DNA of 33,407 bases from Candidatus Abyssobacteria bacterium SURF_5. GTDB lineage: Bacteria > Abyssobacteria > SURF-5. Shown one piece after another: positions 222 to 15,722 of this stretch. The stretch lies in assembly GCA_003598085.1 (NCBI GenBank), contig QZKU01000089.1, positions 1 through 33,407 on the forward strand, read 5' to 3'. Made by a program: the position numbers and the translations under genes. Under the pieces are notes generated by a model. It was not told the origin of the DNA and searched no databases. It saw only the letters and a list, made by a program, of their open reading frames with translations. How positions within the stretch are numbered: the first letter of the stretch is position 1; each line of letters opens with the position of its first letter.

Positions 222-3200
222 ATGATAATCAAGAAGACCTCTTTGCTGGCTATTGTCCTCCTGATTCTCTGTCCTGTCGTGCTGACCTCTGCCTGCAGCG
301 GTGGTGGCGGTGGCGGCGGGGGTGGTGGCGGCGACACAGGACATGTGCTTGATCAGGAAGCGGACTTCCTGGTTTCCGGCCATGCCGACGCCATGGCTGA
401 AGCTTTCGTCCATTGGGACGAAGAGGACCCTCCAGAGGTTCCGGTGACTTGCGCAAAATGCCATAACACTGCCGGTTTCCAGGACTTCCTCGGTGTCGAC
501 GGCTCTACGGTGCGGGTTGTTGATTTTGCCGTCGCCATTGATCCCGCCGCAAACAACGCATTCACCTGTGATCTCTGCCACAACAGTGAAATCGATCATT
601 GGAACTCGGTGATCTTTCCATCAGGCGCGGAGGTCACCGGACTTCAACGCGAAGCTTTCTGTATGGAGTGTCATCAGGGAAGGGAATCGACGGTGAGCGT
701 TGACGCCGCCATCGCGGCCGCCGCCCCGCCGGACGATGACACAGTCAGCGCTTCCTTGAGTTTTAAGAATGTCCATTATTTCCCTGCCGCAGCCACCTTA
801 TATGGCGGTACGGCAATGGGTGCGTATCAATACACCGGCAAATCATATGATGTCAAATTCGCTCATGTGGAAGGATTCGATACCTGCATCGACTGCCATA
901 ATCCTCATAGCCTGGAGGTGGAAGTTCAGAGCTGTCAGCCATGCCATACCGGCGCGGCTACTGCGGCTGATCTCGTGAATATCCGGATGCTCGGTTCCAC
1001 CAGAGACTATGATGGTGACGGGAACATCACTGAAGGCATGGCTCGAGAGATAGAGACTTTGCAGAGTATGCTGTATGCGGCCATTCAGGCATATGCGAGC
1101 GAGGTGGCCGGAGCGGATATCATTTATGATCCTAATGCTTACCCCTATTTCTTTGGGGATACCAACGGCAACGGTGTTGTCGATGAAGGGGAAGCGAAGT
1201 ATGCCTCATGGACAGCGCGCCTCGTTCGGGCAGCCTACAACCACCATTATGTTGTAAAAGATCCGGGCAGCTACGCGCACAATGGAAAATACATTGTCGA
1301 GCTTCTGTACGATTCTATTGAAGATATTAATTCCGCGCTCGCGCCTGCAAGCCAGATCGACCTCTCGAGCGCCCATCGTATCGATGCCGGCCACTTCGCC
1401 GGATCGGAAGAAGCTTTCCGCCATTGGGACGGCGACGGCGAAGTCTCCAGTTCGTGCAGCAGGTGCCACTCGGCGACCGGACTTGCGGAATATCTGGAGA
1501 CCGGTACCGTGGCGACACAGGCTCTGGCTAACGGTTTCCTGTGTTCGACCTGCCACGATGCCATTCCCAATTTCTCATCACAAAGACTCGCCGTGCAGGT
1601 AACTTTCCCCAGCGGGGAAGTGATCGACAGCGGCGACAACACCACAAACCTGTGTATGCAGTGCCACCAGGGGCGTGAATCGAAAGTCTCCGTCGATGCG
1701 AAAACAACAGGGAAGCCCGAGGATACTATCGATGCGACATTGAGCTTCGTCAATGTCCACTATTTCGCCGCCGGCGCCACCCGCTACGGGACAGAAGCGC
1801 TCGGCGGATATGAATACGACGGCATGTCGTATGACGGCTATTTCCCGCACGTCGCCGCCTATAGCGCGTGCAACGATTGCCACGATACTCACGCGCTTGA
1901 GCCAAAGGTGGAGGTCTGCGGGCAGTGCCACGCCGGCGTTGTGGATCCTGCCGATATGTTCAATATCCGCATGGCCGGTTCCACCGTCGATTACAATGGC
2001 AACGGCAACGTTACCGAAGGCATCAGCAGCGAGATCGAAGGTCTGCGCACTCTCCTGTATGCCGCCATTCAGGCATATCCCGCAACCGTTCCGGGCGCAA
2101 ACCCGATCGCGTACGACGGAAGCAGTTACCCCTATTTCTTTGACGACCTCAACGGCAATGGGGTAGCCGATGCGGGCGAGGGCAAATACACCACGTGGAC
2201 TCCGCGCCTGCTGAAGGCCGCTTATAACATGCAGTACACGTTGAAAGACCCGGGTTGCTCGGCTCACAACGCCAAGTACGTGATCGAGCTGCTGTACGAC
2301 GGCATCAACTCGCTCGATCCCACCGTCGCCGCCGGATTGACTCGTAACGACGAAGGCCATTTCAACGCAGCCTCTGAAGCGTTCCGGCATTGGGACGGCG
2401 ATGGTGAGGTCTCGGCGTCCTGCACGCGGTGTCACGCGCCGGCCGCTGGGTTCGATTACTATATCCAGAATGGTGTCGACTCGCCGGCGGCGCTGCCGGT
2501 CTCGTACGGGCTGACCTGCGAAACATGTCATACCGGCACGGATTTCGCCGGCTCGGCCCCCCGTAAATTCGTTCCTTCCGTCACCTTCAAAAGCGGCGTG
2601 ACCATCACCAATAATCCCGCAACCCCCGATGACTCGTTTCTGTGCATCGTTTGCCACCAGGGGCGCGAATCGAAATCAACTATAGATGCCGCTATCGGGG
2701 CCGGCAGCTTCTCGTTCAAGAACGTTCATTACCTGCCCGCCGGCGCCATTCAATACGGTTCCGACGCGATAATCGGATACCAGTATGATGGCAAGAGCTA
2801 CGTCGAGATGTTTGACCATTTCAGCCCCAACTCCGCGCAGTGCAATTTCTGCCATGAACTGGCGCCGGAGAAGCATACGTTCCACGTGGTCCTCACCACC
2901 GAATGTACCGGCTGCCATGGTCCTGTCGCGACGGTGGAGGATATCAGAACGCTCAGGGCGACGGATTATGACGGCGACACCAACAACACCGAGAGATTGA
3001 TAGATGAAATTGCCACTCTTGGGAACGCTCTGTACGCGGAGATTCAAACCTATGCTGCGACGACACTCGGCTCTCCGATTGTCTATGACGAACACGCGCA
3101 TCCGTATTTCTTCATCGACACGAACGGAAACGGCGTGCGCGATGCCGGTGAGGACTCCAAGTACACCGCATGGGATGGAGCCTTGATGAAAGCGGCGCAT

Positions 3201-3323
3201 AACTTCCAGATCTGGGTAAAAGAACCGGGAGCGTGGGCGCATAATACAAACTATATCGCCCAGTTGCTGATCGATTCGATTGAGGATTTGGGAGGAGACG
3301 TGAGCTCGTTTAAGCGACCGTAA
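222..3323 (+). CDS. 15-haem c-type cytochrome lipoprotein with three pentahaem repeats
   Basis: A 1033-residue exported electron-transfer protein. The N-terminus is a hydrophobic signal peptide ending LTSAC; Cys25 may be lipidated (an imperfect lipobox, with T at -3), and an 11-glycine linker follows. The rest is three homologous modules at roughly residues 54-385, 391-707 and 713-1030. Each has five CXXCH motifs, in the first module near residues 77, 116, 147, 222 and 238, so 15 haems are predicted. Each module also has a conserved NVHY segment that could supply an axial His, two Asp/Gly/Asn-rich EF-hand-like loops (DYDGDGN..., DTNGNG...) and a closing AHN.KY...LL.D.I helix. ATG 222 follows AAGGAG with 9 bases between. 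The upstream neighbour is another multihaem cytochrome. The role is probably periplasmic or outer-surface electron transfer; the redox partner is unknown. Module architecture is clear, specific function is not. Confidence 0.92.
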   Translation: MIIKKTSLLAIVLLILCPVVLTSACSGGGGGGGGGGGDTGHVLDQEADFLVSGHADAMAEAFVHWDEEDPPEVPVTCAKCHNTAGFQDFLGVDGSTVRVVDFAVAIDPAANNAFTCDLCHNSEIDHWNSVIFPSGAEVTGLQREAFCMECHQGRESTVSVDAAIAAAAPPDDDTVSASLSFKNVHYFPAAATLYGGTAMGAYQYTGKSYDVKFAHVEGFDTCIDCHNPHSLEVEVQSCQPCHTGAATAADLVNIRMLGSTRDYDGDGNITEGMAREIETLQSMLYAAIQAYASEVAGADIIYDPNAYPYFFGDTNGNGVVDEGEAKYASWTARLVRAAYNHHYVVKDPGSYAHNGKYIVELLYDSIEDINSALAPASQIDLSSAHRIDAGHFAGSEEAFRHWDGDGEVSSSCSRCHSATGLAEYLETGTVATQALANGFLCSTCHDAIPNFSSQRLAVQVTFPSGEVIDSGDNTTNLCMQCHQGRESKVSVDAKTTGKPEDTIDATLSFVNVHYFAAGATRYGTEALGGYEYDGMSYDGYFPHVAAYSACNDCHDTHALEPKVEVCGQCHAGVVDPADMFNIRMAGSTVDYNGNGNVTEGISSEIEGLRTLLYAAIQAYPATVPGANPIAYDGSSYPYFFDDLNGNGVADAGEGKYTTWTPRLLKAAYNMQYTLKDPGCSAHNAKYVIELLYDGINSLDPTVAAGLTRNDEGHFNAASEAFRHWDGDGEVSASCTRCHAPAAGFDYYIQNGVDSPAALPVSYGLTCETCHTGTDFAGSAPRKFVPSVTFKSGVTITNNPATPDDSFLCIVCHQGRESKSTIDAAIGAGSFSFKNVHYLPAGAIQYGSDAIIGYQYDGKSYVEMFDHFSPNSAQCNFCHELAPEKHTFHVVLTTECTGCHGPVATVEDIRTLRATDYDGDTNNTERLIDEIATLGNALYAEIQTYAATTLGSPIVYDEHAHPYFFIDTNGNGVRDAGEDSKYTAWDGALMKAAHNFQIWVKEPGAWAHNTNYIAQLLIDSIEDLGGDVSSFKRP

Positions 3324-5831: not shown

Positions 5832-6848
5832 TTAAACCCGCTCGCGAAAGCTTTCTCCGTGAGGAAAGATGCCGGGATACCCGCCCGTATGAATAAAGAC
5901 CAGGTTCTCGTCTTTTCGGAAGGTGCCTTTGCGGACCAGGTCGAGCATGCCCGCCATGGTCTTGCCGGTATAGACAGGATCAAGGAAAACCCCCTCAAGC
6001 CGCGCCAGCAACTTGATCGCTTCAATGCAAGCGGGAGTCGATTTCCCGTAGGTCTCCCCATAATAGTCGTAATGGACGGTGACTTCTCCGGACTTCGCAT
6101 TGAGCTGCACATCAAGGAGGTCCCCGATCTGGTTGACGATCGTCTCGATCGGCGGCAACCCGAGCGCGGCGAGCGAACCCTTCTTGCTCACAGCGACGCC
6201 ATGAACGGTCGCCGGCATATCCAGGTATTTCACCCCCGCCAATAGTCCCGCCTGAGTGCCGCTGCTGCCCATTGCAACAAAGATGTGATCGATCCTCAGC
6301 CCCATCTCGCGCGCCTGATCGAACATCTCGATTGCAGCCAAAAAATAACCGACGTCCCCGAGCGGAGTGGAGCCGCCGGGAGGGATCATGTAAACGCTGC
6401 GCCCTTGCTCATTCAGCTCTTGGACTTTATCAAAAATCGCAAGTTGCATGCTCTCCATGTTAGACTCGTTGGTAAAATCGGGCAAAAATAAATATTCGCA
6501 GCCCATGATCTCGTCGAGCAGGAGATTGCCGGTGAGCGCGTCCGCGCGGCTGCCGGAAAGAATGAGGAAGCTCTTGAGGTTGTATTTGCAGGCGGCGGCA
6601 GCAGTCATACGACAGTGGTTGGACTGCACCGCCCCAAACGTCAAAAGCGTGTCAGCTTTGTTTTGGATCGCGTCAGCGAGCAGGAACTCGAGTTTTCGCG
6701 CCTTATTGCCGCCCGTCGCGAGGCCGGTCATGTCGTCGCGCTTCATCCAGATCTGCGGTCCGCCGAGGTGCTTCGTGAGGTTGGGCAAGAACTCGAGCGG
6801 AGTGGGCAGAAACGCAAGCGGGACGCGGGGTATATGATTCAACTTCAT
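5832..6848 (-). CDS. PLP-dependent D-cysteine desulfhydrase / ACC deaminase family enzyme
   Basis: A 338-residue fold-type II PLP enzyme. The Schiff-base lysine is in GGNKARKLEF (Lys49), followed by a conserved GAVQSNHCR segment and, in the C-terminal half, a Gly-rich GSSGTQAG phosphate-binding loop. Length and motifs match the group holding D-cysteine desulfhydrase, 1-aminocyclopropane-1-carboxylate deaminase and L-cysteate sulfo-lyase. D-cysteine desulfhydrase would yield pyruvate, ammonia and sulfide. Separating these activities needs alignment of active-site residues I cannot do reliably here. ATG 6848 has AGGAG seven bases upstream; the TTG immediately before it is not preferred. It lies 38 bases after the diiron protein gene, so the two are probably co-transcribed. 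A sulfur role would suit the sulfate-assimilation genes elsewhere in the window, but that is inference. Confidence 0.85.
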   Translation of the reverse strand: MKLNHIPRVPLAFLPTPLEFLPNLTKHLGGPQIWMKRDDMTGLATGGNKARKLEFLLADAIQNKADTLLTFGAVQSNHCRMTAAAACKYNLKSFLILSGSRADALTGNLLLDEIMGCEYLFLPDFTNESNMESMQLAIFDKVQELNEQGRSVYMIPPGGSTPLGDVGYFLAAIEMFDQAREMGLRIDHIFVAMGSSGTQAGLLAGVKYLDMPATVHGVAVSKKGSLAALGLPPIETIVNQIGDLLDVQLNAKSGEVTVHYDYYGETYGKSTPACIEAIKLLARLEGVFLDPVYTGKTMAGMLDLVRKGTFRKDENLVFIHTGGYPGIFPHGESFRERV

Positions 6849-6886
6849 CAATCTTCTCCTGTCTCACGGATCGCTTTTAAGGGTAG

Positions 6887-7381
6887 TTACTTTCGCAGAA
6901 GGGATTCGAGCCTCTTCACATGATCCTGCTCCTCGCTGATCAGACTGTGAAGCGCGGCTCTTCCCGTCTTGTTTTGCGTGTTCGCGAGAATCTGATTATA
7001 GAACATGATCGATCGTTTTTCCACCTCAATCGCGAGGCGAACCGCTTCCTGGGGAGTGCACAGGATATCGGCGACCCGCTCGGGGTCTTTCAAAATGTCA
7101 AACACCTTGGAATCAGCGATGTCGGCAAGTGTTTCTCCTTCATCTGTGACTCCATACTGCCTTGCCAGTTCTTCTACCTTCTCACTGAAAAGATTCAGGT
7201 GGGCGCGCTCGTCTCGAATCAGCATCTGGAGAACATCGAGAATCTTCGGCTTGAGGATCTCATCGAGCATTCGGGAATAATAGTAGATCCCGTCCTCCTC
7301 CATCTTGCGCGCTATGCGATACGCCTCCAATTCGTCAAAATCGAAGATTCTTATTTCGTCATCCGAAAAATCGATCTTCAT
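6887..7381 (-). CDS. Rubrerythrin-like diiron ferritin-like domain protein
   Basis: A 164-residue all-helical protein with two Glu/ExxH half-sites typical of ferritin-like diiron carboxylate proteins. The first helix pair has KMEEDG and DERAH (about residues 26-61); the second has VEKRSI and a closing EEQDH. It has no C-terminal rubredoxin Cys4 domain, so it is a short erythrin form and not full rubrerythrin. Family members reduce peroxide or handle iron in anaerobes. Two ATGs lie close together. At 7387 the ribosome site GAGGAGG abuts the codon, while ATG 7381 has a normal six-base spacing, so I take 7381. A -35/-10 pair lies upstream at 7476-7504 and the PLP enzyme gene follows. The exact activity (peroxidase, or sulfur or iron metabolism) is not fixed by sequence. 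Confidence 0.85.
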   Translation of the reverse strand: MKIDFSDDEIRIFDFDELEAYRIARKMEEDGIYYYSRMLDEILKPKILDVLQMLIRDERAHLNLFSEKVEELARQYGVTDEGETLADIADSKVFDILKDPERVADILCTPQEAVRLAIEVEKRSIMFYNQILANTQNKTGRAALHSLISEEQDHVKRLESLLRK

Positions 7382-7475
7382 GCTCATCCTCCTCGTGCCA
7401 TTGCCGTCGCGACAACCGCTTTTTGGCGCTAAGCGAGACGCTCTTCACGATATCGAAAAGCAGCATCCCTCCGGA

Positions 7476-7562: not shown

Positions 7563-10010
7563 CTAATGGGGTTGGGAAAGAAGCGCCTGCTCGAATTTGG
7601 CCTTTGTCAGCTCGGCATCTTCATGAATGACCTGGTACCCGAGTTCAATAATGGGCATCTTGACGCCGACCCGATTCGCAAGGCGATAGAGACTGGCAAT
7701 AGAATGGAACGTTTCGATGGTCTGATTTTTCTCGACGAAAGTCTGATACGTCTTGCGGCCATGCCTTTTTTCTCCGAGCAGGCTGCCAAATTTGCTCGAA
7801 CGTCCCGCCATCGAGGTGGCATGCAGGTCGGGCCACCAGGCATGGCTTTCGGTGAAGGTTCTCGCATCCGCCCCCAGAACAAGGCCGAGACGCATGATCT
7901 CGTTTGTGGCCGCCATCAGATATTCGCCCAGATAATTCTCGCCCATACCGAAAGATTTGGCCGCCGCATAGATCGACGCATACGGATTTTTCGCCGCGCC
8001 CGCAAGAGAGGTGCCGATCGGATCGGTCGAAACGTGGACGACAAAGCGTTTGTTCTCGAGCATCTGCTTGAGCTTGGCGGTCCGCTCCGGCTTCGAGCCG
8101 GCGATCTGTGTCGAGCACATCTCGCCGCGGATAACCTCGGATGCGATATTGGCGCCAGAGATCACCGCGATATGTATTTCGTGATCGATTCGGGAACGGT
8201 CGATTATCTGCCTGGCCACTACCGGCAGCAAGTCGGCCGTCTGGTGAGAAAAACCCTTGGTGGCAATGACAAGGTCGAGATCGCGCGTGGCATACTTGCA
8301 GACCCGCTCGATCACTTTCTCAAATTCGCTCGAGGGCGTGGCCACAATAATTGCTTTCGAGTCGGTAATGGCGTCCCGATACGAGAATTTCGGATATACG
8401 ATCTTGGGCGCAAGCATGCCGGGGAAGAAGTTCGGATGCACGCCCCGTTCTTTGAGCGCTTCAGTGATCTCCTCGCGTGTATCGTAGATGACTACGCTGT
8501 GACGGCGGTAGGCCTGGTCCTCCAGAAATTTGTTTCCGATAACGTAGGCAATGGTGTAGCCCCACTGGCCCGCCCCGATTACGCATACCTTGTCGTCATA
8601 GTCGGGCGAGTAGAGGCGGTGGTCGCTCATGTTGCCGTAGTAGGCAAGCGCGGGCCGGTCGTTGACCGATACCCTCGAGTTGAAGAACACGCGCCCGCGG
8701 CTGATGATTCCCATCAACTCCAAATCTCTCAGCCCAACCTCCATAACGGCGCGCGGACCCATCTCGAACTCATAGGAGAAATTGGGCTCAGAACCAAAGG
8801 TGTTCTGATGATAATTGATGATCTTCTCTATCTCCGCCTGAATCTGCTGCGTGAGGTGGGGAATCGATATTCGATCGCCGGCCTCGATAGCCTCAGCCAC
8901 AACATGGCTCGGCATAACCTTCTTGACCTTTGCTATTCGGCGAATGCTTTCCTCAGCCACCAGCCGGGCAGGATTGGAAACATCCTTCCGGTCCGAAAGA
9001 AATTTCTTGATCGAGAACGGCTCGCCGACGGCGGCGCAGGCGCGGCCATAGATATCACGATAGCTCACCAGCAGGTTGTGTGAGAGCATGGCAAACGGAT
9101 TGTTCCCATTCGCACGGTCGCGACTTAAACGAAATGATCGGCGACGGTGGCGAAGGAAGTTGTACGTACCCTTGCCGTGCACAAGCTTGTAGTACTCCGG
9201 TACGCGCGAAAATGAGACTGCAATCGGAATCACAATCGCATCCTTGGCGGAATCAAGAATTCCATCAACCACTTTCAGCCGTTCCGGCAGACGCAGTGTC
9301 CCGTTTCGGCTGCGCGCGCCCTGGCGGTTGTTCGCTTCAGGAAAAATGATGAAATCCTCTCCACAGTCCGTCAGTACCTCGCATGTCTTCTCGAGAATCA
9401 CCTTGTACAGATTCCCGAACTCTTCGTCCTTGAACGACCGCTTCACCTTGATAACGTTCAGTTCCTTCATGATCCGCTCGACCTCGGGGAGGAACATCAG
9501 GTTCGCGCCTGCGGCGAAATGTCCTAATCCAAGCCTGAACGAATCCGCAAGATCGCCAACAAGGATGTCATCAATATTGGAAGAATGATTCGCAGCTATC
9601 ACTTTGCTGATCGAATTACCCGGCGGCAACAAGTCGAGATTCGCTTTGTCCGACGGCTTCTCCGTAAAAAAACTGGTGCAGCCGGAAAGATCGAAAATCA
9701 GGTCGAGTAGAAAATAGGCGATCAATCTGAATTTCGCATGCGTCTCTCTGTTGTAAGTCGGGAGAATATCCCGTACTTCAGCCTCCACTCTCGCCAAATC
9801 CGTCGCAGGCGGAAGCTCCTCTCGCAGGCGCATCATCGTCTGATGTAACACCGCCTCGATATCTATCGGTTTCTGAGGGGCGAACGGAGCCACTCGCTCC
9901 TGGATTCCGCTGGCTGCGGTCTCCTTTTCGAGAAAATCAACAAGCGCATCGATACGCGTTGAAGATAACTTCACAAGCTGTCGTCGCAAACCACGCAGAA
10001 GAGGTATCAT
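7563..10010 (-). CDS. Fused glycerol-phosphate acyltransferase and NAD-dependent glycerol-3-phosphate dehydrogenase
   Basis: An 815-residue two-domain protein. Residues about 90-400 are a PlsB/PlsC-type acyltransferase: the catalytic HX4D box is His142-Asp147 (NHSSNID), and FPEANN at 223-228, followed by RQGARSRNG, matches the FPEG-type motif. Residues about 473-815 are a GpsA-like glycerol-3-phosphate dehydrogenase. It has a GAGQWG nucleotide loop at 479-484, an ATKGF segment, GANIASEV (like the GPSFAxEV of GpsA), a GAAKN segment carrying the expected catalytic Lys, and a WPDLHATSMAGRSSKFG block. GpsA reduces dihydroxyacetone phosphate to sn-glycerol-3-phosphate, and the acyltransferase would then acylate it, so one chain may cover the first two steps of phospholipid synthesis. 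An in-frame stop nine bases upstream limits the start to ATG 10010, which has a poor ribosome site. A single ORF with both sets of motifs argues against a sequencing artefact. Confidence 0.88.
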   Translation of the reverse strand: MIPLLRGLRRQLVKLSSTRIDALVDFLEKETAASGIQERVAPFAPQKPIDIEAVLHQTMMRLREELPPATDLARVEAEVRDILPTYNRETHAKFRLIAYFLLDLIFDLSGCTSFFTEKPSDKANLDLLPPGNSISKVIAANHSSNIDDILVGDLADSFRLGLGHFAAGANLMFLPEVERIMKELNVIKVKRSFKDEEFGNLYKVILEKTCEVLTDCGEDFIIFPEANNRQGARSRNGTLRLPERLKVVDGILDSAKDAIVIPIAVSFSRVPEYYKLVHGKGTYNFLRHRRRSFRLSRDRANGNNPFAMLSHNLLVSYRDIYGRACAAVGEPFSIKKFLSDRKDVSNPARLVAEESIRRIAKVKKVMPSHVVAEAIEAGDRISIPHLTQQIQAEIEKIINYHQNTFGSEPNFSYEFEMGPRAVMEVGLRDLELMGIISRGRVFFNSRVSVNDRPALAYYGNMSDHRLYSPDYDDKVCVIGAGQWGYTIAYVIGNKFLEDQAYRRHSVVIYDTREEITEALKERGVHPNFFPGMLAPKIVYPKFSYRDAITDSKAIIVATPSSEFEKVIERVCKYATRDLDLVIATKGFSHQTADLLPVVARQIIDRSRIDHEIHIAVISGANIASEVIRGEMCSTQIAGSKPERTAKLKQMLENKRFVVHVSTDPIGTSLAGAAKNPYASIYAAAKSFGMGENYLGEYLMAATNEIMRLGLVLGADARTFTESHAWWPDLHATSMAGRSSKFGSLLGEKRHGRKTYQTFVEKNQTIETFHSIASLYRLANRVGVKMPIIELGYQVIHEDAELTKAKFEQALLSQPH

Positions 10011-10225: not shown

Positions 10226-10254
10226 ATTATAGAGGAATATTGCCGGCGTGTAAA
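10226..10254 (-). promoter_or_regulatory. Strong sigma70-type promoter for the GPAT-GpsA fusion gene
   Basis: On the minus strand TTTACA (10254-10249), an exact 17-base spacer and a consensus TATAAT (10231-10226). The predicted start leaves a leader of about 210 bases before ATG 10010; I see no riboswitch fold in it. Confidence 0.7.
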
Positions 10255-12806: not shown

Positions 12807-12836
12807 TTGTCCATAGTACCTTCCCCGTTGCATAAT
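12807..12836 (+). promoter_or_regulatory. Candidate proximal promoter for the PAS histidine kinase
   Basis: TTGTCC (12807-12812), an 18-base spacer and CATAAT (12831-12836), giving a leader of about 80 bases. It is weaker than the distal pair; the two could act as tandem promoters. Confidence 0.35.
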
Positions 12837-12923
12837 CTAAAACTATCTCGTAACCCTTTAGTTTTCGCGGCATTGGGCGATCGACGATTGCGGCTGCCGT
12901 CGGTGTTGGGCCAAATAACCATT

Positions 12924-15722
12924 ATGAAAAAAACAGACAAAGACAAGAAACACGTGTTGGAGAAGATGGATCAATCTGCCAATGGGTCCGACGTGCTTCT
13001 CGCGTACATGGACCCGCAGTTCAATTTCATTCATGTCAATAAGGCATATGCCGACGCGGATAAGCGCGACCCGAATTTCTTTCCAGGAAAAAATCATTTC
13101 GACTTGTACCCCAATGATGAGAACGAGGCGATCTTTCGCAGGGTTGTCGAAACCGGCGAACCCTATTCAGCTTACGCAAAACCGTTTATCTATGCCAATA
13201 ACCCGGAACGAGGAGTTTCGTATTGGGACTGGACGCTCCAGCCGGTGAAAGCGACTTCCGGCGAGACGACCGGCCTACTGTTCCGCGCCGTGGATGTGAC
13301 AAAGCACGTTCGGATGGAAGAGGAACTGCGAAATAGCGAAGCGTATTTCCGCCAACTGTTCGATGAGTCCCCGCTCCCTGCCGGCATGGCAGGCTTCGAT
13401 TACCGGTTCCGGATGGTGAATAAGGCGTTCTGCCAAATGCTGGGATACTCGGCCGACGAAATGCTCTCGCTCACCGTTATGGACGTCACGCACAGCGACG
13501 ACCTGTTGGCGGACGCCGTCCAAAGAGACGCACTTGCCGCGGGAGAAATCGACCAGTACCAGATCGACAAACGCTTCGTCCGTAAAGACGGCGCAATGAT
13601 CTGGGTCCGGTTCTGGGCTCGCTTGCTTCGAGATAAAGAGGGAACCTCCCTCCACCTCATGCTTCTTGTCGAGGACATAACGGATGAAAAACGAGCCGAA
13701 GAGGAACTGAAGCTGTATCATGAGCGCCTCGAGCAGATGGTCGGCGAACGAACGACGGAACTGGCCGAGGCAAACGCGAAACTTCAGCAGGCGATAGTCG
13801 AGCACGAGTGCGACGAAGAAAAATTGCGTGAGACAAACGAACAACTGAATAACATTCTCAGCAGCATCAGCGACGGCTTCTTCACACTCGATAACCAGAT
13901 GGTCGTTACATACTTCAACCAGGCGGCGGAACATCTGGTTGGCCGCAAAGCTGAAATTGTTGTGGGCCGGCCTCTGTTCGACGCGTTCCCGGAAGCCAGA
14001 GGCTCTGTTTTCGAAGAGAAATACACATACGCACTGAAACATAAAGTGGCGCTTTCGTTTGAAACATATTTCGGCGTCGAACCGCTCACCAACTGGTACG
14101 ACGTCCGGGTATATCCGTTCAAGGATGGGATCAGCGTCTATTTCCAGGTGACGACGGCGCGCAGGGAAGCCGAAGAGGCCATTCGAATCAGCGAGGAGAA
14201 ACTGCGGCTGGTGACCGACTCTCTTCCCGCGCTCATTGGATATGTCGATGCGGATCGGCGATTCCTGTTTAACAACAAGTTGTACGGGGAATGGTTCAAG
14301 CAACCACAGGCTGAACTTGCCGGCAAACATATGAGGGAAGTCCTGGGAGAAGCGTCATATCGGAAAGTGGCGCCATATGTCGAAAAGGTTCTTTCCGGCC
14401 AACCCGTTCGATTCGAGGTCGTTTTCGAATTTGAAGGCGGATTGCAGAAACCCGTCGAGGGCAGATATGTCCCGCACATTGATGGGGAAGGCAACGTGCA
14501 AGGCTTTTTTGCACTGGTGACCGATATCAGCGAGCGCAAACAGTTCGAAGCCGAGCGCGAGCGCCTGCGCAAAGAGGCCGAAGAGGAACGCGACCGGCTG
14601 ATGACCCTGCTCAATACCGTAAGCGACGAAGTTTGGTTCTGTGACACAAAAGGGAATGTCACTCTCCTGAATGTGGCCGCCGAAAAGGGAGGCTTTACGC
14701 CGGAAGACGTGAATCAGCCGCTTCACCAATGGCTGCAGACGGTTGAGATCTTGGATGCTGAGGGGGGACATCCGCGTCCCACTGAAGACGCTCCGCTTCT
14801 GCGGTCTTTGCGAGGCGAAACCGTCCGTAATTTTGAAGAGATCGTGCGCGATCCGCTGACCGGACTGCTGAGATACCGCGAGGGCAGCTCCACTCCGTTA
14901 CGGCGGCGCGACGGACGCATCGTCGGCGCCGTTGCCGCGGTGCGCGATGTCTCCGCCCGCAAGCGAGCCGAGATCGCCCTTCGCGAGAGCGAAACGCGCT
15001 TTCGAGAACTTTCTGAGCACCTCGAGCAGAAGGTAAGGGAGAAAGTAGTCGAGCTGCAACAGGCGGAAACCCTCGCCGCAATCGGCCGCATGGTCTCCGT
15101 CGTCGCCCACGAGGTGCGCAATCCTTTACAGAAGATCGGCATGGGAGTCGAGACCCTGAAGAGCGACCTGGGACAGGATTCGACTGAACTGGAAATCCTC
15201 GATGAAATCGCCTTCGGCGTCGATTCGTTGAACGGCATTATCGGCGATCTGCTGAATTATTCAAGGCCCATCAAACTCGATCCCGCTCCGGTCCGCATCG
15301 AGGACCTGGTGGAACAGGCCATTAGCCTGTTGCACAACAAACTGCCTAATATATCGCTCAGCATAAAGCTGGACCGGCCCCAAGAGGAACTCCGGGTTGA
15401 CCGGATGAAATTCGTGCAGGTCCTGGCTAATCTCATATCCAATTCCGCCGACGCCATGCCCGACGGCGGCACCATGACCATTCAGTCAAGCTACAATGAC
15501 AACGCCGGCATATTCAGCCTGTCTGTCTCGGATACCGGCCACGGAATCAAAGAACACGATATCAAGAAGATATTCGAACCCTTCTTCACCACGAAAGTCA
15601 GAGGAACAGGACTGGGGCTCGCCTTCTGCAAGAAAATTATAGAGGCCCATCACGGAGAATTGCGGATAACGAGCAAAGAGGGCAATGGGACAACGGCCGA
15701 AATCATTCTGCCGGCCACGTGA
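12924..15722 (+). CDS. Multi-PAS sensor histidine kinase
   Basis: A 932-residue sensor kinase with no obvious membrane segment, so probably cytoplasmic. Five PAS-like domains lie at about residues 20-135, 141-255, 308-420, 427-540 and 560-680, joined by charged coiled-coil linkers. The phospho-acceptor His729 is in AHEVRNPL (HisKA), and the ATPase domain has the N box NLISNSADAMP, DTGHGI, a FEPFFTTK box and GTGLGL. Several PAS-C-like ends (VTDISERK, VRDVSARK) are visible. Such kinases sense redox state, ligands or gases and phosphorylate a response regulator, but none is encoded next door, so it is an orphan. The frame is open back to a TTG at 12807; I chose ATG 12924 as the first ATG ahead of PAS1, though no clear ribosome site precedes it. 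ATG 12966, after TTGGAGAAG, is an alternative. Confidence 0.87.
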   Translation: MKKTDKDKKHVLEKMDQSANGSDVLLAYMDPQFNFIHVNKAYADADKRDPNFFPGKNHFDLYPNDENEAIFRRVVETGEPYSAYAKPFIYANNPERGVSYWDWTLQPVKATSGETTGLLFRAVDVTKHVRMEEELRNSEAYFRQLFDESPLPAGMAGFDYRFRMVNKAFCQMLGYSADEMLSLTVMDVTHSDDLLADAVQRDALAAGEIDQYQIDKRFVRKDGAMIWVRFWARLLRDKEGTSLHLMLLVEDITDEKRAEEELKLYHERLEQMVGERTTELAEANAKLQQAIVEHECDEEKLRETNEQLNNILSSISDGFFTLDNQMVVTYFNQAAEHLVGRKAEIVVGRPLFDAFPEARGSVFEEKYTYALKHKVALSFETYFGVEPLTNWYDVRVYPFKDGISVYFQVTTARREAEEAIRISEEKLRLVTDSLPALIGYVDADRRFLFNNKLYGEWFKQPQAELAGKHMREVLGEASYRKVAPYVEKVLSGQPVRFEVVFEFEGGLQKPVEGRYVPHIDGEGNVQGFFALVTDISERKQFEAERERLRKEAEEERDRLMTLLNTVSDEVWFCDTKGNVTLLNVAAEKGGFTPEDVNQPLHQWLQTVEILDAEGGHPRPTEDAPLLRSLRGETVRNFEEIVRDPLTGLLRYREGSSTPLRRRDGRIVGAVAAVRDVSARKRAEIALRESETRFRELSEHLEQKVREKVVELQQAETLAAIGRMVSVVAHEVRNPLQKIGMGVETLKSDLGQDSTELEILDEIAFGVDSLNGIIGDLLNYSRPIKLDPAPVRIEDLVEQAISLLHNKLPNISLSIKLDRPQEELRVDRMKFVQVLANLISNSADAMPDGGTMTIQSSYNDNAGIFSLSVSDTGHGIKEHDIKKIFEPFFTTKVRGTGLGLAFCKKIIEAHHGELRITSKEGNGTTAEIILPAT

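Follow-up and report, generated by a model that had tools for sequence, protein, structure and literature searches.

A PlsB-type acyltransferase fused to a GpsA-like dehydrogenase in Abyssubacteria, a predicted bifunctional enzyme of early glycerophospholipid synthesis

Described relatives and the fused gene

The first committed steps of membrane-lipid synthesis are essential and are almost always carried out by separate proteins. A related architecture is described for the algal phosphoserine phosphatase–GPDH bidomain enzyme (Dunaliella 6iuy), in which a C-terminal GPDH lies behind the enzyme that uses its glycerol-3-phosphate (G3P), and glycerol is made directly from DHAP (PMC7468427). The gene analyzed here has the same arrangement, but its partner domain is an acyltransferase rather than a phosphatase, and the algal product is glycerol for osmoprotection, not lipid. 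On the acyltransferase side, DHAPATs and mitochondrial GPATs have acyltransferase motifs in common, one of which, motif III, binds G3P/DHAP (PMC4207751). On the dehydrogenase side, K120, K204, and D260 of human GPDH are catalytic, R269 is phosphate-binding, K120 contacts the C-1 hydroxyl of DHAP, and N270 hydrogen-bonds the substrate phosphate, with N270A costing 5.6 kcal/mol (PMC12874384). Among open-licence papers, no description of a GPAT–GpsA fusion was found.

In the window, the whole 33,407-nucleotide stretch of DNA that was analyzed, a single minus-strand reading frame joins the two domains. The DNA comes from Candidatus Abyssubacteria, a lineage of the deep subsurface.

Positions 7563 to 10010, minus strand: fused PlsB-type acyltransferase/GpsA-type dehydrogenase gene, ATG at 10010, stop ending at 7563 (ORF and translation, Pfam, orthologs).
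Positions 10226 to 10254, minus strand: possible promoter 5' of the fusion gene, TTTACA-17-TATAAT (consensus scan, 11 of 12 matches); weak, because the number of such matches does not exceed that in shuffles.

The frame encodes 815 amino acids without interruption, and its start is well bounded because a stop codon lies three codons 5' of the ATG. It is located on contig C89 of the source genome (G000), an assembly of 5,103,455 bases in 145 contigs that is 98.5% complete. A preliminary description had proposed one polypeptide with both domains and had quoted the motifs HX4D, FPEANN, GANIASEV, and GAAKN; all four lie in this one frame, Pfam models match both halves, and full-length orthologs exist in two other genomes, in agreement with that proposal.

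These orthologs belong to two other members of the family and lie on independent contigs, C142 of G002 (SURF_17; QZKI01000094.1) and C8 of G001 (a groundwater MAG; JACRIR010000099.1). They are 74% and 72% identical to the window protein over the full length, with the junction within well-aligned sequence. The second contig (L083) is labelled 'Candidatus Poribacteria', a label that looks wrong, since taxonomy places its genome in the window's Abyssubacteria family. Between the fusion orthologs, amino acid identity per half is 0.72–0.76, and third codon positions differ at 0.54–0.60 compared to 0.10–0.15 for second positions. Values of dN range from 0.16 to 0.21, with dS saturated or above 2.6 in both halves, which indicates that both halves are under purifying selection. 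As all three sequences derive from metagenome assemblies, the fusion could in principle be an artefact in which assembly or gene calling joined two neighbouring genes. However, the three species share the same junction on separate contigs, in alignable sequence and without a stop or frameshift, and dN is low on either side of it. The recurrence of the same full-length fusion at 72–74% identity on separate contigs of two genomes excludes chance, frameshift, and assembly chimera, and the artefact reading is effectively refuted.

The two halves of the protein

The acyltransferase half forms the N-terminal part of the protein.

Positions 8607 to 9815, minus strand: PlsB/GPAT-type acyltransferase half, residues ~66–468, ending in a PlsB-type LAYYGNMSDH segment (hhalign).
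Positions 9570 to 9587, minus strand: acyltransferase motif I, H142-SSNI-D147, with H, S, and D invariant in 10 compared PlsB-type proteins.
Positions 9300 to 9344, minus strand: acyltransferase motif III with a five-residue insertion, FPE[ANNRQ]GARSRNG, residues 223–237 (alignment).

The Pfam Acyltransferase model (PF01553) matched residues 137–265 at 36 bits (cut-off 23), and GPAT_C matched residues 320–466 below its cut-off (17.2 vs 25 bits). Profile comparison by hhalign yielded a probability of 99.0 over 362 columns against short PlsB-like GPATs from other families and of 98.2 against long PlsB proteins. In these alignments the similarity is not limited to the generic acyltransferase domain but continues into the part specific to GPATs and reaches its YYxNxxxH segment, whose end is separated from the dehydrogenase by only a few residues. 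The same kind of comparison with the genome's own three PlsC-like acyltransferases produced no match. A phmmer search of the N-terminal half against the PDB gave no match even at E = 10; its link to the PDB came solely via the short PlsB-like relatives, which match PlsB models and solved GPAT structures. Judged by its profile, the half is of the PlsB/GPAT type and not of the PlsC type, and the earlier call of a glycerol-3-phosphate acyltransferase domain holds along its length.

At the level of individual motifs, H142, D147, R191, E225, G231, R233, R235, and P262 are kept relative to the 10 PlsB-type proteins. The motif II region ((F/Y)-x-I/V-R-R) corresponds to V189-K190-R191 and is present in relaxed form only, with the second Arg kept, the first replaced by Lys, and the aromatic residue by Ile. 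Motif IV (phi-x-P, then Y/F-x-R-x-x-E) is found as IPIAVSFSRVPE, in which P262 and E272 are invariant and R269 is common. In motif III (F-x-E-G-x-R-x-R), the ANNRQ insertion separates E from G, with F, E, G, R, and R themselves present. The insertion is absent from all 10 compared PlsB-type proteins and present in all three Abyssubacteria proteins, across which the motif is invariant except for S234, a Thr in one of them.

The half shares with the PlsB/mitochondrial GPAT family (PF01553 and GPAT_C; TIGR03703; PDB 9vuq, 8e4y) its full-length profile, motifs I and IV, motif II in the relaxed form, Glu and RSR from motif III, and the C-terminal YYxNxxxH. It differs from long PlsB in having neither the N-terminal nor the distal C-terminal region and in the added ANNRQ, and it scores far below the curated PlsB cut-offs (16 vs 618.5 bits). 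Short stand-alone PlsB-like acyltransferases (~475–533 amino acids; genomes G222, G008, G203, and G058) have the same length and boundaries as the N-terminal half and end at YYANSxxH, but they are unfused to GpsA, and PlsY also occurs in three of their four genomes.

The dehydrogenase half follows almost immediately.

Positions 7596 to 8594, minus strand: GpsA-like NAD glycerol-3-phosphate dehydrogenase half, residues 473–805 (PF01210, PF07479; PDB relatives 3k96, 2pla).
Positions 7797 to 7847, minus strand: remodelled substrate loop SHAWWPDLHATSMAGRS, residues 722–738, with D728, T732, and R737 kept, G725 changed to W, G727 to P, and the N270-equivalent to S738 (column counts vs 48 GpsA/GPD sequences).

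Both Pfam domains exceeded their gathering cut-offs, NAD_Gly3P_dh_N (PF01210) with 108.9 bits at residues 474–641 and NAD_Gly3P_dh_C (PF07479) with 75.3 bits at residues 663–803. The best NCBIfam match, NF000942, reached 179.6 of the 257 bits needed, below the curated GpsA subfamily cut-off, and we therefore call the half GpsA-like and not a GpsA equivalog. In common with GpsA and GPD1, it has, besides the two domains, the GxGxxG loop and the equivalents of human K120, K204, N205, D260, T264, and R269 (K585, K674, N675, D728, T732, and R737), consistent with the complete dehydrogenase described earlier.

That description had also suggested that the dehydrogenase block may be a divergent branch, pointing to GANIASEV (residues 619–626) and GAAKN (residues 671–675). 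GANIASEV turns out to be ordinary, as eukaryotic GPD1-type enzymes carry GANIA and a human GPD1-like protein has GANIANEV at this position. The unusual features lie elsewhere, in the WWPD...RS loop, in the length of the branch stem, and, on the acyltransferase side, in the motif III insertion. Before the catalytic Asp, the usual G-x-G-D (GLGD) is WWPD in the fusion, with Trp and Pro in place of two near-invariant glycines, and the position of human N270 is Ser in all three species, whereas all 45 comparison sequences in which this position is occupied have Asn. In a tree of 51 sequences built from the GpsA half, the three fusions group as one clade whose stem is 3.71 changes per column long, an orphan branch without a close stand-alone relative in the sample. 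The tree joins this clade with one other sequence, L088 (94/66), a grouping flagged as a meeting of long branches, and no origin is therefore claimed for the dehydrogenase half. Among sequences from other families, L088 (G175:C244:3919-4857) is one of those that score highest in bits against the fused dehydrogenase; its weak grouping is possibly long-branch attraction. It comes from a genome with two divergent GpsA paralogs and, by eye, lies directly after an ftsA-like ORF.

The changes in both halves sit in polyol-phosphate recognition sites, so that the substrate assignments of the two halves are provisional.

Lipid-synthesis genes and distribution of the fusion

In the source genome, PF01210 scored 110 bits for the fusion ORF and at most 27 bits elsewhere, and a whole-protein search of the three genomes (G000, G001, and G002) returned no second match beyond the fusion. 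PlsY (PF02660) and PlsX (PF02504) were absent from all three, with control genomes positive for each, and no other PlsB-type protein was found in them. The preliminary description had named separate gpsA and pls genes, together with a loss of catalytic residues, as evidence against its proposal; Pfam and whole-protein searches turned up no separate gpsA, plsX, or plsY, and both halves retain their chemistry residues. CdsA is encoded in all three genomes. Glycerol kinase also occurs in all three, well above its cut-off, which means that G3P can also come from glycerol. Among the PlsC-like acyltransferases of the source genome, that on C26 passes the TIGR00530 (AGP acyltransferase) cut-off, and those on C112 and C13 are weaker. 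Iron-alcohol-dehydrogenase matches had suggested a G1P dehydrogenase, a candidate that was set aside for the best match in the source genome, which is 3-dehydroquinate synthase. On the basis of these searches, the fusion is probably the sole enzyme that makes G3P from DHAP in this genome and also the one recognisable G3P acyltransferase there.

The wider distribution was assessed in a sample of 386 genomes treated as relatives, almost all of which lie outside the fusion's family. PlsB-like matches occurred in 32 of them, including three Abyssubacteria, and among the ORFs recovered from these 32 genomes none besides the Abyssubacteria fusions carried GpsA. GpsA C-terminal domains were present in 328 of the 386 genomes, with none longer than 622 amino acids among the open frames listed (about 150 of the matches). 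Two sets of long frames were examined as further fusions and rejected: seven scanned GpsA frames of 531–622 amino acids contained GpsA domains only, together with read-through upstream frames, and long PlsB-like frames (850–1000 amino acids) were without GpsA. A collection-wide contig scan relied on just two patterns, both taken from the N-terminal half, a design that reaches close relatives, and two relatives were found. Within what was examined, the fusion is confined to the Abyssubacteria family, which does not prove uniqueness. In genome G008, plsY is immediately adjacent to gpsA on the same strand; the two genes of G203 also share a strand and are near each other.

Predicted function and alternative readings

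The reading we favour, with a probability of roughly two in three, is that the fusion is bifunctional and catalyzes both opening reactions of glycerophospholipid synthesis, from DHAP to G3P and from G3P to lysophosphatidic acid. The C-terminal GpsA-like domain would use NAD(P)H to reduce DHAP to sn-glycerol-3-phosphate, and the N-terminal PlsB-type domain would acylate G3P at the sn-1 position, with acyl-ACP or acyl-CoA as the donor. The resulting lysophosphatidic acid would be processed further by the PlsC-like enzyme encoded on contig C26 of G000, a protein distinct from the fusion, and by CdsA. In architectural terms, a short PlsB-type acyltransferase without the distal PlsB C-terminal region is joined to GpsA almost without a linker, and this fusion would replace the usual plsY–gpsA pair of a PlsX/PlsY bacterium. 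Both activities, the acyl donor, and local G3P delivery between the domains are predicted from sequence; an AlphaFold model built from the three sequences reached a mean pLDDT of only 43 and a pTM of 0.33 and carries no weight here. Direct channeling of G3P, as the preliminary description proposed, is plausible but does not follow from the fusion itself, and glycerol kinase constitutes a second G3P source.

Several observations argue for the bifunctional enzyme: the domain content and order with full-length conservation in three genomes; the sole strong GpsA match in a genome where PlsX and PlsY are absent and CdsA and the TIGR00530 PlsC-like enzyme are present; the PlsB-type similarity along the length of a half that is unlike the genome's other acyltransferases; and the retention of the six human GPDH residue equivalents, with low dN and saturated dS in both halves. 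The plsY–gpsA proximity in G008 and G203 points the same way, the fusion coupling equivalent functions via a different acyltransferase, and in JACRIR010000099 an AMP-binding acyl-CoA synthetase-like gene directly follows the fusion. A precedent exists in the algal fusion of GPDH with the next G3P enzyme (PMC7468427). Against these points stand the Ser at the N270-equivalent in all three proteins, given the loss of 5.6 kcal/mol in human N270A (PMC12874384), the Trp and Pro in place of two near-invariant substrate-loop glycines, the insertion of five residues between Glu and Gly of motif III, the very long stem of the dehydrogenase (3.71 changes per column), and the alternative G3P source provided by glycerol kinase.

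In a rival reading the order of the reactions is reversed, with the N-terminal half acylating DHAP and the C-terminal half reducing 1-acyl-DHAP to 1-acyl-G3P, such that the protein never makes free G3P. Peroxisomal DHAPAT, a member of the same acyltransferase family, acylates DHAP. DHAPATs have the mitochondrial GPAT motifs (PMC4207751), and the DHAP-phosphate grip (N270 to S), the GLGD-to-WWPD loop, and acyltransferase motif III are all altered in the fusion. An acyl-DHAP route would explain this joint change of both recognition sites. We know of no GpsA-family acyl-DHAP reductase, however, which counts against this route, as do the kept R269-equivalent and the need to fit an acylated C-1 into a pocket that known GPDHs keep closed off. 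Also kept is the equivalent of K120, the residue in contact with the DHAP C-1 hydroxyl (PMC12874384), and we regard the acyl-DHAP route as unlikely. Equally improbable in our view is that one half is non-enzymatic, such as a dehydrogenase that senses DHAP/NADH and regulates the acyltransferase, with G3P supplied by glycerol kinase or an FAD-linked dehydrogenase, or an acyltransferase that only anchors the dehydrogenase at the membrane. The replacement of an otherwise invariant Asn and of the loop glycines, the very long stem branch, and a glycerol kinase above cut-off in all three genomes are compatible with such a role, but every carbonyl-chemistry residue is retained, as is the GxGxxG loop, both halves are strongly constrained, and no other GpsA, PlsB-type, PlsX, or PlsY protein was found in the genomes.

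A bolder version of the bifunctional reading, which we put forward tentatively and with considerable doubt, is that of a lineage-defining enzyme that commits DHAP to lysophosphatidic acid and whose two polyol-phosphate sites were remodelled together, either for direct hand-over of G3P between adapted sites or for the reversed order of acylating DHAP and reducing acyl-DHAP. If true, the reversed order would represent a bacterial acyl-DHAP pathway assembled from PlsB and GpsA components. The corresponding changes at the two phosphate-binding sites lead to a specific, testable prediction, namely altered or coupled substrate recognition. More generally, the fusion, seemingly the lineage's only G3P-forming reductase and only recognisable G3P acyltransferase, offers a natural system for testing substrate channeling in lipid synthesis, and its genomic context indicates that the PlsX/PlsY route can be missing from a deep bacterial branch.

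Two genes lie downstream of the fusion in the window.

Positions 6887 to 7387, minus strand: ferritin-like/rubrerythrin protein, conserved immediately downstream of the fusion gene in two species (L082:3614-4105 in SURF_17; Pfam/NCBIfam).
Positions 5832 to 6851, minus strand: PLP enzyme of the D-cysteine desulfhydrase/D-cysteate sulfo-lyase group (L082:4243-5256 in SURF_17).

The same ferritin-like and PLP genes follow the fusion in SURF_17, and a hexapeptide-repeat gene precedes it in both relatives. The ferritin-like protein has weak similarity, below cut-off, to the encapsulin cargo EncB. For the PLP enzyme, the score against D-cysteate sulfo-lyase CuyA was 364 bits at a cut-off of 450, and the score against TIGR01275 (D-cysteine desulfhydrase family) exceeded its cut-off. 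Elsewhere in the window, the plus strand encodes a 1033-amino-acid multiheme cytochrome c that has numerous c7/c3-type repeats and matches to MtrC/MtrF-like domains (positions 222 to 3323), a candidate for extracellular or periplasmic electron transfer, and a 971-amino-acid sensor histidine kinase with about five PAS domains (positions 12807 to 15722).
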